Source: an uncultured Chlorobiaceae bacterium
GTDB taxonomy: Bacteria > Bacteroidota > Chlorobiia > Chlorobiales > Chlorobiaceae
DNA length: 64,000 bases
Reading direction: 5' to 3'
Assembly (NCBI GenBank): GCA_903866255.1
Contig: CAIPMW010000065.1
Location: 1-64,000, forward strand
Shown in pieces: positions 11,737-18,692 of the stretch; within the stretch, counting starts at the first letter, position 1, and every line of letters starts with the position of its first letter. The notes under the pieces are model-generated. The model ran no database searches and had not been told where the DNA came from. It saw only the letters and a program-made list of their open reading frames with translations. The translations under genes and the position numbers were made by a program.

Positions 11737-13140
11737 TTACCTGTCAGCAAGTTCAGGCAGCAGCTTCATGAAATGCTCAATATTATCAGGATAGGAAACT
11801 GACAATGCTGAAAGTGTCCGCTGGAATTTTGTATAGACAACATTTGTCCTTCTGAGTTCATAACTTTCATTTTCTGCGTTTATCACCGGTTCAAGAGCGT
11901 AAATAAACCAGGCAATTTCTGCCTCCTGTTTTTCAACCGGCACCAGATTCGGAAGTGCTTCGAAGTAGTTCCGATCAATGGCAACAGCAATTTTTTTATT
12001 CCATGAATTCAGAATAGAGCCCTTGAAGATAAGTTGAGGCACAAGGCTCTCTCTCATTGCTGAAACATAATCGGATTGAGGGTAGTTGGACTGTGCTGAC
12101 CAATCCATCAATGAGTTTGTCTGTGGATCCCTCATGTAAAAATCGAATGGATCGCGCACATTTCCGTCGATAAAAGCTGACTGGATTTCGATAGCCCCAA
12201 AATCAGTCATTTTACCCGTGTCGTCATAAGCGACAAGAACAACATCAATATTACCAGCAGATTTACCATAAGCATCAGTTAACTCTACCTCTGTCAGAGA
12301 GCTCCAGCGAACCCCTTCCGGGAAAAAGAATGAAGCGGCATCATCAGTAATAAGCCACTCTTCGCGAAAACGAACAGGGCATGTAATCACTGGCTTATTA
12401 TTATGCAGAAGACTGCATACTCCAAGAGGATTATTTGGGTTCTCGTTGGTGCAGTTGGGAACGCGGTTATTGAAAGGGCAATGGCGGTGAGAGCGGTACC
12501 GTTGTGCCTTGGAAGAGAGGTCGGTCGTTGTAAAACCAAAAACCTCAGCTAACGGATTCTTGAAAGTGTTCATGCTGTAAAAATTTTGCGACGCGGTGGG
12601 TTGGAAGTGACTTATAGAGCTGCTTTTCGTTACCTGTTGCACAAGGCCAATATTGTGGTGAATCGAAGTGAACGGTCGTGTGCCAGTACTCATGGAATCA
12701 GGCGAAGTTGCTGGAGAGTTGGCTGGTTGCAAGCCATCCGCAGAATCCTCTGTTCTCTCTGCTTCTGGTACATCCGGCTCCATGAAAGGGACAATATCAC
12801 TGAACATATCGCGAGGCAACTCAGCCTGAATGGTAGATTCGGTACTGCCGGAACCACCATTATCAAGAGTATTATCCTCTGAAGCGAGCTGAAAGGGTGC
12901 CAATGGTGTCTTGGCCATAACACGGGGTGCAGAATCCTGATACGGTCCACCGTTTACAAGATCCATACTCTGCTGCAGTTGATCCACATGCAACTGCTCG
13001 TTCTTGCTTATCTGCAAGAGTCTCTTTTTGATATCCGCATCATCCACGTCTGCCGCGAGCGTAAAAAAAACATCCCTTTTTTGTTTTTTAATCTCAGCCA
13101 TGGAGGAGAAAAAATCGAGCAAATCCTTATTAATAAACAT
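11737..13140 (-). CDS. NotI-like restriction endonuclease with helical N-terminal extension
   Basis: This 467-residue protein resembles the NotI endonuclease family in its second half. After NPLAEVFGF (195-203) come four cysteines, C221 (CPF), C230, C242 (GVC) and C254 (TCP), the same pattern that holds the iron in NotI. The PD-(D/E)xK core follows: D299 (NIDVVLVAY), then E318 and Q320 in GAIEIQ. NotI itself is about 380 residues; here about 190 residues precede the match. The first 60 residues form two predicted helices (FTLAADVDDADIKKRLLQIS, then NEQLHVDQL) that look like half of a ferritin/rubrerythrin bundle, followed by a Ser/Pro/Thr-rich linker. The start overlaps the preceding small gene by 11 bases. 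No DNA methyltransferase is visible in the window, so a normal restriction-modification role is unproven. Confidence 0.75.
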   Translation of the reverse strand: MFINKDLLDFFSSMAEIKKQKRDVFFTLAADVDDADIKKRLLQISKNEQLHVDQLQQSMDLVNGGPYQDSAPRVMAKTPLAPFQLASEDNTLDNGGSGSTESTIQAELPRDMFSDIVPFMEPDVPEAERTEDSADGLQPANSPATSPDSMSTGTRPFTSIHHNIGLVQQVTKSSSISHFQPTASQNFYSMNTFKNPLAEVFGFTTTDLSSKAQRYRSHRHCPFNNRVPNCTNENPNNPLGVCSLLHNNKPVITCPVRFREEWLITDDAASFFFPEGVRWSSLTEVELTDAYGKSAGNIDVVLVAYDDTGKMTDFGAIEIQSAFIDGNVRDPFDFYMRDPQTNSLMDWSAQSNYPQSDYVSAMRESLVPQLIFKGSILNSWNKKIAVAIDRNYFEALPNLVPVEKQEAEIAWFIYALEPVINAENESYELRRTNVVYTKFQRTLSALSVSYPDNIEHFMKLLPELADR

Positions 13141-13369
13141 CTTTTGTGCTTTTTTCTATGGATTCAATAAGAGTTTTTGTGTATTCCTTTTGTTTTTTCA
13201 TATCGATATCAAGCTGTTGCAACATATCAAGAATCCTTGATTGTACACCTTCGTCAAGTGTTGAATATCTAAGGACATTCTGAATATGGTTTGAGTAAAT
13301 GGAAATAACCGATTCCTCGCTTTGCTCAATGGCGCTTATTTTGTGGAGTAATTCTTGCTTTTCGATCAT
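13130..13369 (-). CDS. small helical (ferritin-like?) protein, partner of the NotI-like protein
   Basis: This 79-residue protein, almost all helix, overlaps the start of the NotI-like gene by 11 bases, so the two are probably translated together. The pattern SAIEQSEESVISIYSNHIQN, then LDMLQQLDIDMKKQKEY, resembles the helix pairs of rubrerythrin-type ferritin-like proteins, and it resembles the N-terminus of its neighbour in layout. The metal-binding E-x2-H motif of true ferritin-like proteins is not complete. A likely role is dimerisation or complex formation with the neighbour's N-terminal helices; this is inference. It has no signal peptide. Confidence 0.6.
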   Translation of the reverse strand: MIEKQELLHKISAIEQSEESVISIYSNHIQNVLRYSTLDEGVQSRILDMLQQLDIDMKKQKEYTKTLIESIEKSTKDVY

Positions 13370-13493: not shown

Positions 13494-13522
13494 TATCCCA
13501 GTTGTGAGTCACAACTGGGATA
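13494..13522. terminator. perfect 13-bp hairpin between the Nif11 peptide gene and the NotI-like pair
   Basis: TATCCCAGTTGTG (13494-13506) and CACAACTGGGATA (13510-13522) pair perfectly around a three-base loop. The hairpin lies about 27 bases beyond the stop codon of the minus-strand Nif11-type gene and 125 bases before the next gene. It lacks a clear U-tract on the minus strand, so it may be a weak terminator, an mRNA-stabilising 3' end, or an operator. Confidence 0.55.
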
Positions 13523-13548: not shown

Positions 13549-13758
13549 TTACCCCCAATGTTCGGAGGCTGGCAGGCAAGGCCCTCCGGTGGTGCTTTCC
13601 GAATCTTGAAGGGCGATGAACTCATCCCAATTCACCTTGCTGAGCTCCTCCAAAGTGAACGAAAACCCCTCTTTCCTGATGAATGCAAGAAAACGCGCAC
13701 TCATTCTCGGGTCATTTTTCAATTTCGCAATGAATCTTCTTGCTTGTTCTTCCGACAT
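13549..13758 (-). CDS. Nif11-type leader peptide, candidate RiPP precursor
   Basis: This 69-residue protein has the Nif11 leader pattern: MSEEQARRFIAKLKNDPRMS, then a helix and GFSFTLEEL at 31-39. Nif11 domains are known as leader peptides of ribosomally made, modified peptides in cyanobacteria and others, and also occur beside nif genes. A Gly-Gly at 58-59 (STTGG) is followed by a ten-residue tail, PCLPASEHWG, with one Cys and one Ser that could be modified. No lanthionine synthetase, radical SAM modifier or C39 peptidase transporter is seen nearby. The start codon lies 47 bases inside the 3' end of the GH8 gene, so it belongs to the exopolysaccharide operon. Confidence 0.75.
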   Translation of the reverse strand: MSEEQARRFIAKLKNDPRMSARFLAFIRKEGFSFTLEELSKVNWDEFIALQDSESTTGGPCLPASEHWG

Positions 13759-15004
13759 AGCCCACCCCGCATATAAGGTTTCGAGATGAAAAAAATCTAC
13801 CCAAAGGTGAACAGATTTTTTTCAATAAAAGTTCACCAGTGAGGCGTATTTCATTACGAAAAGATGTGTTTTTAGCGTGATATTTGGTGGAGAGCGGAGG
13901 ATACTTCAGTTTACCAGCTAATTTTAAGCTGTTATAGTACTCAGGTAACCAGGAGATACTGTTGATGTAGTAGTCATTATTATCGTTGTAATATAATCCC
14001 TCATTGTTTTTCCGAATACACTGTCTGAGGCGTTGCAGTACTGCCAGGGAAAGGGGTGAGCCAGCAGTCTCTGTTGCAGCGTATACTGCACTGTAAAATA
14101 GGGCATTTTCATAAGTTTGACCCTTTGATGGTTCAGCGTACTCCTTTTCGAAGGATGCGGCAAAATGACGAAGCACATCAAGGGCACGACTATCCCCATA
14201 GAGATAATAATCAGCGGCAATTCTCAAGGGAATCCTCACAGCATCCCATCCATAGTCAAGGGGTTTTCCTGGCAGTTCAACAAAACTTCCATTCTGGTCA
14301 ACAGCAATCCAGTCAGGTACCCCCCCCTTTTTTTTTAGTTCACCCGGGGACGCCTCAAGAAGATGTCCGAGGATAGAGTATGTGGTATCGACAAGATCAA
14401 GCCAGCGCTTGTCCCCACTGACCTCAAAAAAGAGCTTGAAATGAGAGGGCGCATAGTACGAGGGGTTCAAGGCAACAACGTTACCCTCACGGTTGTTCTG
14501 TTTCGGCCATGGAAGTAAATAAAGTTTTCCATTAATGACCGATGTCTCTTGATCAAGAACACTTTTGAGCACTTCGCTCGCAAGCGTCACATAGTGCACA
14601 TCATCCCATTTGCGGGAAGCAAGAATAAGGCTGTATGCATAATCAATGTCAGCATCTGATGCTGACTTTCTGTCGATGACATGTCCATTTTCAAAGTGCC
14701 ATGCCAGCAACCTGTCACCATGTGATATCTTTCTGGAGAGTTGAGCTTCCGTCCAGTCCAGGCACTCATCAAAAGTTTTGCGGTCATCCAGCAGCACAGC
14801 GCGAAGCATCCCGTAGGCCTGACCCTCCGAAACGGTATCATTGTTGTTTTTAGGGCGAAAAACCCTCCCTTGACGAATAAAGGTCTGTTTATAGTGAGCC
14901 CATGAGGCCTGGGCAATCTTTTCAGGGTTCTGGGGGACTGAGGAGCAGTTTATTGCAAGTAATGGAAAAACCAAAACCAGAAAAAGCAAAACTGACTGCT
15001 TCAT
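13712..15004 (-). CDS. glycoside hydrolase family 8 (BcsZ-like endoglucanase)
   Basis: This 430-residue exported enzyme of family GH8 probably trims a beta-linked glucan as it is made. E60 in SEGQAYGMLRAV is the expected catalytic acid and D117 in DADIDYAYSL the base region; DYGWDAVRIPLR at about 280 is also typical. The N-terminus MKQSVLLFLVLVFPLLAINC is a signal peptide with a possible, atypical lipobox (AINC). The last 40 residues, after STKYHAKNTS, extend past the usual GH8 domain. It overlaps the synthase gene by four bases and the Nif11-type gene by 47. Family members act on cellulose, chitosan or lichenin, so the substrate is not fixed. Confidence 0.88.
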   Translation of the reverse strand: MKQSVLLFLVLVFPLLAINCSSVPQNPEKIAQASWAHYKQTFIRQGRVFRPKNNNDTVSEGQAYGMLRAVLLDDRKTFDECLDWTEAQLSRKISHGDRLLAWHFENGHVIDRKSASDADIDYAYSLILASRKWDDVHYVTLASEVLKSVLDQETSVINGKLYLLPWPKQNNREGNVVALNPSYYAPSHFKLFFEVSGDKRWLDLVDTTYSILGHLLEASPGELKKKGGVPDWIAVDQNGSFVELPGKPLDYGWDAVRIPLRIAADYYLYGDSRALDVLRHFAASFEKEYAEPSKGQTYENALFYSAVYAATETAGSPLSLAVLQRLRQCIRKNNEGLYYNDNNDYYINSISWLPEYYNSLKLAGKLKYPPLSTKYHAKNTSFRNEIRLTGELLLKKICSPLGRFFSSRNLICGVGYVGRTSKKIHCEIEK

Positions 15005-16515
15005 TTTCTGTTGAAATGAAAAAGTCCACTGAGTAGAATAAGCTGAAAACCCATCCAGAATACATTGACGGCAAGTATGCTTTGAACACCATCATTCGTC
15101 AATAGCCGCATAACGCCCCAGGAAAATGTTACAAACACTGTAGTGATCAGCAACAACTGTGGCCAGAGGCTTTTCCAGGGAACATTGGATGAGTTCCCCT
15201 TTGGAGTGACCTGAAACCCTTTTTTACTGATATTGAGTATGCCAACAATTGATGCACTCAAATATACAGGCATGGAGAGAGCTGTCAGCATCTGCACCTT
15301 GATCATATTGCTGAGTTTATATTTTTTCTTGACCATGCTGCCGTAAAAAACAAGATTCGAGAGTATGAAAAACGGAATAAATGTTATCGAGTAGAAAAAT
15401 GAATCAATATTATACGAGTTGATATCCAGAAAAATATACAGCATTGGACCTGCCATCAGAATAAAATATGCTATCCCTATAAAATAGTAGGTTGTTGATA
15501 TGAAATACTCAAGCCACTGTTCTGGGCGTAGCGACTTTATATCGGTAAAAAAGATTTTTACCAGCTTGCGGAAGAGTTGTGAAGTGCCCAACGCCCAGCG
15601 GTTCTGCTGGGTAAAGTATGCTGCCAAATCCTCCGGAGCCATACCGAATGTATAGGCTTTGTGAATAAAAAATGATTTCCAGCTTTTCGTATGGAGCTTC
15701 AGTGAGGTGGCAATATCCTCTGTGACGGTCTCTTCATCAAAATTGCCAACACTGTTCAGAGCAGCGCGACGGAAAACAACATTGGTGCCACAGCAAAACA
15801 TCGCCTTGTTTATTGTTTTTCCAAGACAGATATACTCATAAAAAATAGCCTGCTGGTTATGCGCAATCATCGCCACAATGCTGTCGTCACCATTTGAATA
15901 GAACTGGGGGGTCTGTACAAAGGCAAGGCGATCATCACCCTCAAGAAAAGGTACAAGTGTCTTCAAAAACACTGGCATGGGGTTCTGATCAGCATCAAAG
16001 ATAGCAATATATTTTTCATTGAGAGTTTTCAGCACCTCGTTGATCATGCCAGCTTTTGCCCCGCGGTTGTCGCTGCGGGTAAAGAGGTTGACTCCCAGTT
16101 GTTCTGAAAGTTCCTTTGCTTCACGCTTGTAACTTTCAATGGTTGAGTCATCAAGCAGATAGACATTTTTGTTCTTGTATGCAATGTTCTTGCATGTCAG
16201 GAGTGTTGTCTCAATAATATCCCTTGATTCGTGCCGAGCCGGTATCAGAATCGCTACAGAGGCACCCTTGCCGGGGCTCTTCTGCGGTGGGGATAATGGA
16301 CGCAAATTCTCACGAAGTACATCAACAAAAAAGAAAAACGAATGGAACAAAATAAATATCTCGGCACAGAAAAATATCAGACTGAATACGAGTTCAAGCG
16401 TAGTAAATGGCGCAATTAAGATGTAGTAAATGCGGACGCCAACATATATGGCGAGCAGAAGCAACAGCAAAACTATCTGTAGAATCAGAAACCAGGAATT
16501 TTTCTTGTCACGCAT
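15001..16515 (-). CDS. membrane glycosyltransferase family 2, cellulose-synthase-like
   Basis: This 504-residue processive synthase of the BcsA type polymerises a sugar-nucleotide into a beta-glycan and probably threads it through the inner membrane. Two membrane helices precede the GT domain, which shows DDS (122-124), DAD (174-176), TED (265-267) and QQNRW (303-307); four to five further helices follow. It ends at about residue 504 without a PilZ domain, so c-di-GMP control like that of BcsA is not expected in this polypeptide. It lies between the porin gene (26-base gap) and the GH8 gene (4-base overlap). No bcsB homologue is seen. Confidence 0.88.
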   Translation of the reverse strand: MRDKKNSWFLILQIVLLLLLLAIYVGVRIYYILIAPFTTLELVFSLIFFCAEIFILFHSFFFFVDVLRENLRPLSPPQKSPGKGASVAILIPARHESRDIIETTLLTCKNIAYKNKNVYLLDDSTIESYKREAKELSEQLGVNLFTRSDNRGAKAGMINEVLKTLNEKYIAIFDADQNPMPVFLKTLVPFLEGDDRLAFVQTPQFYSNGDDSIVAMIAHNQQAIFYEYICLGKTINKAMFCCGTNVVFRRAALNSVGNFDEETVTEDIATSLKLHTKSWKSFFIHKAYTFGMAPEDLAAYFTQQNRWALGTSQLFRKLVKIFFTDIKSLRPEQWLEYFISTTYYFIGIAYFILMAGPMLYIFLDINSYNIDSFFYSITFIPFFILSNLVFYGSMVKKKYKLSNMIKVQMLTALSMPVYLSASIVGILNISKKGFQVTPKGNSSNVPWKSLWPQLLLITTVFVTFSWGVMRLLTNDGVQSILAVNVFWMGFQLILLSGLFHFNRK

Positions 16516-16541: not shown

Positions 16542-18692
16542 TTAAAAAAACCACCGGATTTCTGTTTTAAGCAGCTTGTCTTCATAGAAAGACTTTGTAG
16601 CCCAGGAATACTGTCCCTCAATTGATGAGGAAAAGCGGTTACTCCAGTCGTGGTATAACATTGCTCGAATCTGGTGCGAGATATTATTCTCGGGTTCAGC
16701 AATAATTTTGTATGAGGCTGAATAATATGTTTCATTGACACCCTGAAAAAGCTCATCATTAAAATAACTGCGGAATTCCATACCTAATGAATGAGTGTTA
16801 AACGATGAGGGGCTCCAGTAGCTATGAGGAGTCGAATTGGAGAAGCCATAGTTCTGAAACCGGTATGTAAGGTTCAGTCGCTTCTGACCAAAAAGGAGAT
16901 GAGACGTAACATCACCGCCAGTGGTATGACCACGGTTGCCATCTGAATAGTGAGCAAAATCGTAATCCAATCCGGCATTCCAGTTTCGATAACCGTCATA
17001 GTTTAAGCGATATTGTAATCGATTTCTCCTGAGTTGTTTACGAAATGTTTCGGCATTATCAATCACCTCTTCACGGCGAAACGCAAATCCAAGGTGAATG
17101 TTGTTCAGTGGTTCGCTTTGAGTTTCAACAAAGCCTGTATGAGATCCTGCTGAATTTCCAGAGTTGACGTGATAGCTGTACGCCCCCCGAACCAGTATAT
17201 CAGGGATGTTCCGGTATTCAAAACCAGTTGTCAAGTTATTTTGAGTGACGTTTCCCGCACGACTTTCAAAACGGAAGGATTTGTTGTCGTAGCGCAGAAA
17301 ACCGGAAAACTGATCGTCATAAGGCCAGGAGATTGATGAGTAGATTCCTGTATAGGTGACATTCATGCTTTTCCACTTGCTGTTGACATCGAAATATTCT
17401 GCACCGCTCTGGAGCGTCGGCATGGCAGAGAGAATGCCGGTTTTCTTTTGCGCAAGTGCTGCCTGCTGATGTTCCGGCATGTTGGTTAACATCAGATTAA
17501 ACGTATCCCTTGCCTCTTTCCAGTGTGCGCTCTGCATAAAGAGCTGGCCAAGGTCAAAAAGCGCTTCAGGCTCATTTGGTTCAATCGCAAGCCACTCCCT
17601 GTATGCCTTTACCGCAGGTCGATAAGCGCTGCGGTAATAGTTTTTCTTGGCGGTTGCTTCAGCCTTGAGCGCCTTGCTCTCAGGATAAGCGACAAGTCCT
17701 TCATCGTACGCAGCAGTTGCGTTTCCATATTTTGCCATCCATCCAAGTACGCGGCCCTTTTCGCGATATGCCTTCAGTCGAAAATAATCGATCCGATGGG
17801 CATTGTCCAGGGTAATAAGTTTGTCATAATTGACAAGAGAGGTTGCATAATCTTGTTGCCAGCTCGCAATTTCAGCTTTAATCAGCAATGCTGTTTGGTT
17901 GATCTTATTTTTAGGTGAGTGCTTGATCAACTCATCACATGCCTGTAACGCTGCCGCAAAGTCCTGCCGTCCCAAAGCAAAATATGCCTTGGTTTCCAGA
18001 ACATAACTGTCTGCAGGATAGTACTTTTCGACCGAGTCCAGTAACTTTTTTGCTTCCGCCAACTCTTTGACTGAGGAAAGCTTATTGGCAAAAGCGATTG
18101 CGTTATCTTTCTGTCTGTTTTTTTCAAAAAGTTTCTGGTAATATACACCTGCGTCCACATACTGTTTGTTGCTGAAGAGCACATCAGCATATTCACGCTG
18201 AATAGAATCACTTATCTCACTGGGAGTGACAACAGTATCAACAAGTTTCAGCGCTGTATCCCAACGTCCAGTCCACGAATAGGCCCTGGCCGCATTAAGG
18301 AGCAGTTGCGTGTTTTCAGGTTCAATTTTTATCCACTGTTCATACAATGGAAGAGCCTTTTCGGCTTTTTGCGCGGACAAAAAAAGATCAATGACTTTTT
18401 TCAAAACGAACGTATCCGTCGGGTATAACTCAACGAGTCTGGCAGCGACCTCCTCACCGTCTTGATAGGCTTTGTTGGCAAAGCAGGCGGAAGCAAGTTT
18501 CAGTGTTGATGTCTTGTCAAGAGCGCCCGCCTTGAACAGATCCATAGAGACTGGTGCAATGGATTGAATTTCCTGAATCCGTTTTTTTTGATTTTTTGAT
18601 TTACTTTGCCCGGCAGCATGGCTTACGGCAGGTTCACTCACAATGGCAATTCCTGCCATGGCTACTAAAAAAAATGCATTACCTGATTTCAT
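16542..18692 (-). CDS. TPR/beta-barrel outer-membrane protein of the exopolysaccharide operon
   Basis: This 716-residue protein has a signal peptide (ending about SHAAG), TPR repeats from about residue 60 to 420 (for example PLYEQWIKIEPENTQLLLNA and WLAIEPNEPEALFDLGQLF), then a barrel-like C-terminal region from about 430 that alternates aromatic residues and ends in RWFF. The layout is that of BcsC, PgaA and YaiO-like export porins, in which periplasmic TPRs feed a beta-barrel. It is first in the minus-strand operon and probably exports the polymer made by the neighbouring synthase. The barrel is shorter than that of BcsC. Confidence 0.82.
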   Translation of the reverse strand: MKSGNAFFLVAMAGIAIVSEPAVSHAAGQSKSKNQKKRIQEIQSIAPVSMDLFKAGALDKTSTLKLASACFANKAYQDGEEVAARLVELYPTDTFVLKKVIDLFLSAQKAEKALPLYEQWIKIEPENTQLLLNAARAYSWTGRWDTALKLVDTVVTPSEISDSIQREYADVLFSNKQYVDAGVYYQKLFEKNRQKDNAIAFANKLSSVKELAEAKKLLDSVEKYYPADSYVLETKAYFALGRQDFAAALQACDELIKHSPKNKINQTALLIKAEIASWQQDYATSLVNYDKLITLDNAHRIDYFRLKAYREKGRVLGWMAKYGNATAAYDEGLVAYPESKALKAEATAKKNYYRSAYRPAVKAYREWLAIEPNEPEALFDLGQLFMQSAHWKEARDTFNLMLTNMPEHQQAALAQKKTGILSAMPTLQSGAEYFDVNSKWKSMNVTYTGIYSSISWPYDDQFSGFLRYDNKSFRFESRAGNVTQNNLTTGFEYRNIPDILVRGAYSYHVNSGNSAGSHTGFVETQSEPLNNIHLGFAFRREEVIDNAETFRKQLRRNRLQYRLNYDGYRNWNAGLDYDFAHYSDGNRGHTTGGDVTSHLLFGQKRLNLTYRFQNYGFSNSTPHSYWSPSSFNTHSLGMEFRSYFNDELFQGVNETYYSASYKIIAEPENNISHQIRAMLYHDWSNRFSSSIEGQYSWATKSFYEDKLLKTEIRWFF

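Follow-up and report, generated by a model that had tools for sequence, protein, structure and literature searches.

Among the described systems closest to the locus reported here are the Nif11-derived peptides, or N11P (TIGR03798/PF07862), which include the prochlorosin-type precursors and whose leader is closed by a Gly-Gly cleavage motif, ELSDEELEAVAGG (Haft et al., 2010; PMC2887384). Two other systems invite comparison: PqqA and MftA (mycofactocin), short precursors of RiPP cofactors with a constant core, and, for a gene next to the Nif11 gene, the NotI restriction endonuclease (PF12183; PDB 3bvq and 3c25), which bears no relation to the Nif11 protein. It is routine to annotate Nif11 proteins as RiPP precursors. 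The present case lies in a 64,000-nucleotide stretch of DNA (hereafter the window) from a Chlorobiaceae genome of 117 contigs and 2.8 Mb, with a completeness of 99% (hereafter the window genome), for which a preliminary description had proposed a Gly-Gly-cleaved Nif11 peptide linked to exopolysaccharide genes.

The 69-residue reading frame at 13549-13758, given in that description without a strand, is a real gene on the minus strand and encodes the protein MSEEQARRFIAKLKNDPRMSARFLAFIRKEGFSFTLEELSKVNWDEFIALQDSESTTGGPCLPASEHWG. Its Nif11 homology had been recognized correctly: the protein passes the gathering cut-off of PF07862 (34.3 bits, 3e-08; cut-off 23.8) and, narrowly, the curated cut-off of TIGR03798 (33.0 bits, 5.4e-08; cut-off 32.3), in an alignment that covers positions 1-51 of the 68 of the latter profile and stops short of the model end. 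It consists of a Nif11-type helical head (residues ~1-45), a variable linker (51-61) and the tail LPASEHW (62-68), followed by one residue. In a predicted structural model (mean pLDDT 74.8), helices span residues 3-56 and the tail comes out as disordered, with pLDDT below 50 at residues 56-64. Pairwise dN/dS values of 0.13-0.33, together with an invariant tail, indicate that this is more than a chance reading frame. A structured RNA was rejected as Rfam gave no match, and a phage or plasmid origin because searches of phages, plasmids and viral contigs returned no match.

Homologues were searched for in 61 genomes, the window genome included, of which 37 are Chlorobiaceae. Seventeen genomes encode homologues and 11, again including the window genome, encode a true orthologue, referred to as type A. 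All 11 type-A proteins share the heptapeptide LPASEHW without a single change, and its codons show 0 nonsynonymous versus 187 synonymous differences when summed over the 55 pairs (dN = 0). Synonymous change is near-saturated there and, since two to four codons are in use at each degenerate position with no nonsynonymous change, the constraint acts on the protein. In the window, the codons of LPASEHW(G) occupy 13552-13575 on the minus strand; a search with the corresponding DNA pattern, CTNCCNGCNWSNGARCAYTGG (13555-13575), finds 11 places, exactly in the 11 type-A genomes of the 61, and 0 in the control. The tail is thus kept more strongly than had been proposed and, being invariant, is not the unconserved end of a decaying frame.

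A second set of proteins, type B, ends in GYEHWxG. This motif followed by a stop codon was found at 18 places in 12 genomes (control, 0), and all 18 close small Nif11-like proteins, one of which is cut by a contig end. The middles of these proteins are unalignable across subgroups, and the residues common to type-A and type-B tails are E, H and W only. Deviating tails occur among near relatives, namely GYEYWVG, GYENWCG and GDKQWQG. The window genome has one gene of each type. The type-A protein belongs to a family specific to Chlorobiaceae, in which a shortened Nif11 head is followed by a rapidly evolving, flexible linker and then by a C-terminal peptide that does not vary. With LPASEHW as this peptide in type A and GYEHWxG in type B, the family can be read as a new constant-tail Nif11 subfamily. 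In the literature searched, no paper was found that links Chlorobi Nif11 proteins to an EHW tail. A sortase-like reading of LPAS was rejected, because the protein has no membrane anchor and LPAS is missing from type B. A second Nif11 family without Gly-Gly (MSQDSAKLFLAKMKQDKE...EAKLLADWL) was also observed, nearly identical in three genomes (L019, L032 and L033).

Comparison of the orthologues bears directly on the Gly-Gly site, which had been taken for a classic cleavage context followed by a ten-residue tail. STTGG is present in the window genome only (1/11); at this position the type-A relatives have SASGSSS, DLPDTPN, PLHARPN or a seven-residue deletion. The site lies in the fastest-evolving segment of the protein, residues 51-61, with a summed pN of 0.50 versus 0.27 for the head and body and 0.00 for the tail. 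As the Gly-Gly is private to the window genome and sits where constraint is lowest, the inference of a Gly-Gly leader fails, and this reading of the site was rejected. No conserved Gly-Gly motif closing the leader was found among the 11 type-A orthologues; where the head ends, an invariant Trp (Trp44) stands in place of it. Genuine Gly-Gly precursors were found in sister genomes of the same genus, such as ...SELSDDELDQAAGG... and ...SELSDDELDQAAGGAYGGG...; their head is ~9 residues longer and ends in ELSDDEL...GG, both of which are missing from the type-A protein.

The type-A protein thus resembles N11P in being small, in having an N-terminal Nif11 domain above the curated cut-off and several dispersed paralogues per genome, and in having phototrophic, nitrogen-fixing hosts. 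Unlike N11P, it has a head shorter by the same ~9 residues, which ends in the invariant Trp without Gly-Gly, and a C-terminus that is conserved and not hypervariable: after the head comes a variable linker and then the invariant LPASEHW, and no hypervariable core was found. Nor were the LanM, YcaO or C39 exporter of N11P systems found in the window genome. Profile searches of this genome detected no LANC_like (LanM), YcaO or MNIO protein and nothing above the cut-off for the NHLM C39 exporter (TIGR03796), the best ABC match starting at position 172 of the 710 of that profile, past the peptidase region; no modifying enzyme adjoins any family member. Since the type-A protein passes the profile cut-offs and fails the Gly-Gly, variable-core and machinery features, it is a variant of the Nif11 kind and is not filed here as an N11P natural-product precursor. 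A well-delimited Nif11 branch can therefore score above the curated cut-off without the defining features, with conservation reversed, the middle being variable and the end invariant. Genome-mining pipelines would call type A a Gly-Gly-leader bacteriocin and predict the wrong core.

Three genes on the minus strand of the window underlie the proposed link with exopolysaccharide: a TPR/porin-like protein (16542-18692) and a cellulose-synthase-like glycosyltransferase (15001-16515), both recognized by profile matches and found by locus comparison to be facultative neighbours, and a BcsZ-like GH8 protein (13712-15004; PF01270, 164 bits). This linkage is real in the window, and in 6 of the 11 type-A genomes the gene has porin-synthase-GH8 on one side and the genes c2 and c1 (see below) on the other, with nifH next in 4 of these 6. 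It is not constant, however: the other five carry the type-A gene at another chromosomal site, without polysaccharide genes and between two copies of c1 plus c2 (in G028, one of the five, this locus is divided between two contigs). As several Chlorobiaceae additionally have the operon without a Nif11 gene, polysaccharide export was rejected as a conserved link. The 47-base overlap with the GH8 gene that had been pointed out is likewise present in the annotated reading frames, but private, being a product of the loss of the GH8 stop codon in the window genome. At the place of AAATATCACG in the window, the closest relative has the stop codon GGATAACACG, and the GH8 protein is 376 aa long in L061 and L063; by this comparison of lengths and stops, the last ~54 codons of the window gene (13712-13860) are a private stop-loss extension running across the intergenic region into the Nif11 gene.

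The preliminary description stressed the polysaccharide genes and left unmentioned c1 and c2, the neighbours kept in every type-A locus. The c2 gene (13130-13369, minus strand) encodes a helical protein of 79 aa, identified as a constant neighbour by locus comparison and homologue search, which also occurs in polysaccharide operons of other Chlorobiaceae without Nif11 or NotI. The c1 gene (11737-13140, minus strand) encodes a 467-aa fusion protein, with a ferritin-like hairpin of helices at residues 1-68 and a NotI fold at ~190-466. The latter assignment is based on PF12183 (184 bits), on fold comparison (NotI 3c25_A: Z 11.6, rmsd 5.0, 226 aligned residues; Foldseek, NotI at 3.9e-07) and on an alignment in which this part displays four Cys and an ExQ-type motif, the putative NotI active site by the pattern of the PD-(D/E)XK fold. 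Sequence searches of the PDB with c1 gave chance-level matches only. The hairpin compares with EncB/rubrerythrin-like hairpins at Z ~9-10, a score that, for short helices, may mean a mere common arrangement. In sum, c1 shares with NotI its fold and Cys motif and, unlike NotI, is fused to a ferritin-like hairpin, has no DNA methyltransferase beside it at any fused-c1 locus compared, and has an active-site motif that drifts in several copies.

Type A, the c1 form in which the N-terminal part is fused to NotI, and close c2 orthologues are found in the same 11 genomes (11/61, or 11/37 Chlorobiaceae). Over the 37 Chlorobiaceae, Fisher's test gives 1.2e-9 for this co-occurrence on the assumption of independent genomes; because these genomes are related, the occurrence at two chromosomal sites is better evidence of pairing than the Fisher figure. 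In two further genomes, from a second collection and found via the Nif11 query only, c1 and c2 also flank the type-A gene, and the pairing of type A with the NotI fusion is thus strict over 13 genomes and two chromosomal sites. That a Nif11 protein is consistently paired with a fused and seemingly domesticated NotI domain provides a concrete genetic handle on its function. A second copy of the NotI fusion, with a degraded N-terminal hairpin and a VAD tandem repeat, was noted in L064 (8642-9769).

Relatives of c1 outside the type-A loci hint at how the fusion arose. Several Chlorobiaceae have the arrangement porin-synthase-GH8-c2-c1N (c1N denoting a c1 that consists of the hairpin only), with no Nif11 gene there. 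Solitary NotI genes of Chlorobiaceae, in turn, share a conserved second neighbour; the only one of these neighbours to be scanned, that in L117, is a D12 DNA methyltransferase. All of the solitary NotI copies (10/10) retain the ExQ motif; among the fused copies, ExQ or DxQ is found in the first, polysaccharide-linked context, and every copy of the second has (E/D)xH. Taken with the lack of a methyltransferase beside fused c1, these observations suggest that a protein of the polysaccharide operon gained a NotI domain roughly when the Nif11 gene arrived, and that the catalytic site of the fused domain is drifting. Two sets of loci were recorded in the course of this comparison: in L110-L116, small overlapping helical genes of 79 and ~82 aa (the second ferritin-like) end a synthase/GH8/TPR-porin operon with no adjoining Nif11 or NotI gene, and in L117-L125, a solitary NotI-family endonuclease and a second conserved gene (the D12-class methyltransferase in L117) form probable restriction-modification pairs.

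The DNA flanking the type-A gene is also partly conserved. In both chromosomal contexts, an element of the form GAACTTTTATCGAGAAAAGATAGTT precedes type A by ~75-160 bases and, at up to 6 mismatches, is found only upstream of type-A genes among the loci compared. The mismatch search places the window copy (GAACTTTTATYGAGAAAAGATAGTT-like), which is the most diverged with 6 mismatches, at 13800-13834 on the minus strand, within the spurious GH8 extension. Immediately downstream of the type-A gene, a 13-bp hairpin without a T-run (13494-13522, minus strand) is a possible transcript end; in L064 a terminator-like hairpin with a T-run lies downstream of the type-A gene, and the hairpin search found none at this position in L061 or L063. 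These features are suggestive of a type-A gene forming its own transcription unit, and each gene of the family would probably be a small transcription unit of its own, inserted into the polysaccharide operon rather than belonging to it.

How the protein works can be proposed from this anatomy. The Nif11 head would be a docking domain and the tail the working end, and a trans-acting partner common to the dispersed paralogues would either modify the fixed tail, in the manner of a constant-core RiPP such as PqqA or MftA, or bind it, type A being probably used together with the c1 and c2 proteins. As the known role of Nif11 heads elsewhere is that of leaders recognized by enzymes, we lean slightly, and with less than even confidence, towards a constant-core peptide whose tail is modified in trans; this reserve applies to the mechanism, i.e., modification in trans, and not to the anatomy. 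As with PqqA and MftA, the invariant C-terminal residues of a short precursor would be the part that does the work, and the genome encodes a candidate SPASM radical-SAM enzyme; unlike in those systems, there is no adjacent maturase, there are several precursors per genome and the sequences are unrelated. The window genome has SPASM radical-SAM genes on two contigs. One of them, in the C27 pair (L178, 3437-5422), encodes a 359-aa SPASM radical-SAM enzyme and adjoins a methyltransferase gene. In a test covering 25 Chlorobiaceae, this enzyme was found, at 89-98% identity, in 6 of the 8 type-A genomes scanned (window genome included) and in 0 of 17 others, the two type-A genomes that miss it being 81% and 88% complete. 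No small conserved precursor was seen by eye in the 700 bases upstream of the pair. The C27 pair is thus a lead as candidate trans-acting enzyme for the tail. However, it is not beside the type-A gene and its co-occurrence may be plain shared descent; several dispersed precursors with a fixed core in one genome would also be unusual for a natural product, and the sharing of just E, H and W between type-A and type-B tails, together with the deviating relatives, would likewise argue against a common modification.

It is also possible, if somewhat less likely than not, that type A is a docking or regulatory small protein, in which the Nif11 head and the SEHW tail would form a bipartite module that recruits or restrains c1, together with c2, for instance by inhibiting a domesticated nuclease that no longer has its methyltransferase, or by acting as its adaptor. 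The strict pairing over 13 genomes and two sites would fit such a role, as would the contrast between solitary NotI, paired with a second neighbour (the D12 methyltransferase in the one tested), and c1, which has none, the drift from the ExQ kept in all solitary copies to DxQ or, throughout the second context, (E/D)xH, and the absence from the window genome of all the RiPP machinery searched for. Type-B paralogues, however, have a near-identical tail and no NotI protein nearby, so that the EHW motif cannot be NotI-specific.

A broader proposition, which is rather doubtful as a whole, is that the SEHW/GYEHW tail represents a new system in green sulfur bacteria, based on a fixed C-terminal peptide. 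Several dispersed Nif11-headed carriers would then present one near-identical peptide to a single processing or reading partner, one carrier having joined with the domesticated, methyltransferase-less fusion of NotI and a ferritin-like hairpin, entered a polysaccharide operon and been transplanted elsewhere as well.

That the protein binds a pigment, haem or metal, the Glu-His-Trp tail being the ligand site and the head an assembly domain in an anaerobic phototrophic host, is unlikely. A His-Trp pair is found at known ligand sites for bacteriochlorophyll and NotI binds iron; E-H-W is invariant in type A and present in most of type B, and c1 combines a ferritin-like hairpin with four conserved Cys like those of the iron-binding NotI. 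Yet no linkage to genes for pigments or chlorosomes was apparent in the ~20 neighbourhoods read, and the His is replaced by N or Y in divergent members. Least probable by far is the original proposal of a precursor cleaved at Gly-Gly to release PCLPASEHWG as the core of a bacteriocin or RiPP exported by a polysaccharide-linked path, which the Nif11 profile matches and the Gly-Gly ten residues from the end in the window genome had favoured and which, on comparison of the orthologues, is refuted for the family as a whole, given that the Gly-Gly is missing from 10/10 type-A relatives and falls in the least constrained segment, that the TIGR03798 match ends at 51 of 68, that the window genome has no NHLM C39 exporter above the cut-off and that polysaccharide genes are missing at 5/11 loci.

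A separate observation concerns the radical-SAM genes. In the window genome, L179 (C2:1000-10000) contains a SynChlorMet-like cassette made of two radical-SAM/SPASM enzymes of 378 and 400 aa, PqqD, a ScmC-like protein and an ABC exporter. SynChlorMet is not mentioned in the literature searched, and the proteins of this cassette all score below the NCBIfam curated cut-offs. It is a possible candidate for a peptide-modifying cluster, and close relatives of its two radical-SAM enzymes occur in two other Chlorobiaceae (G010 and G024).
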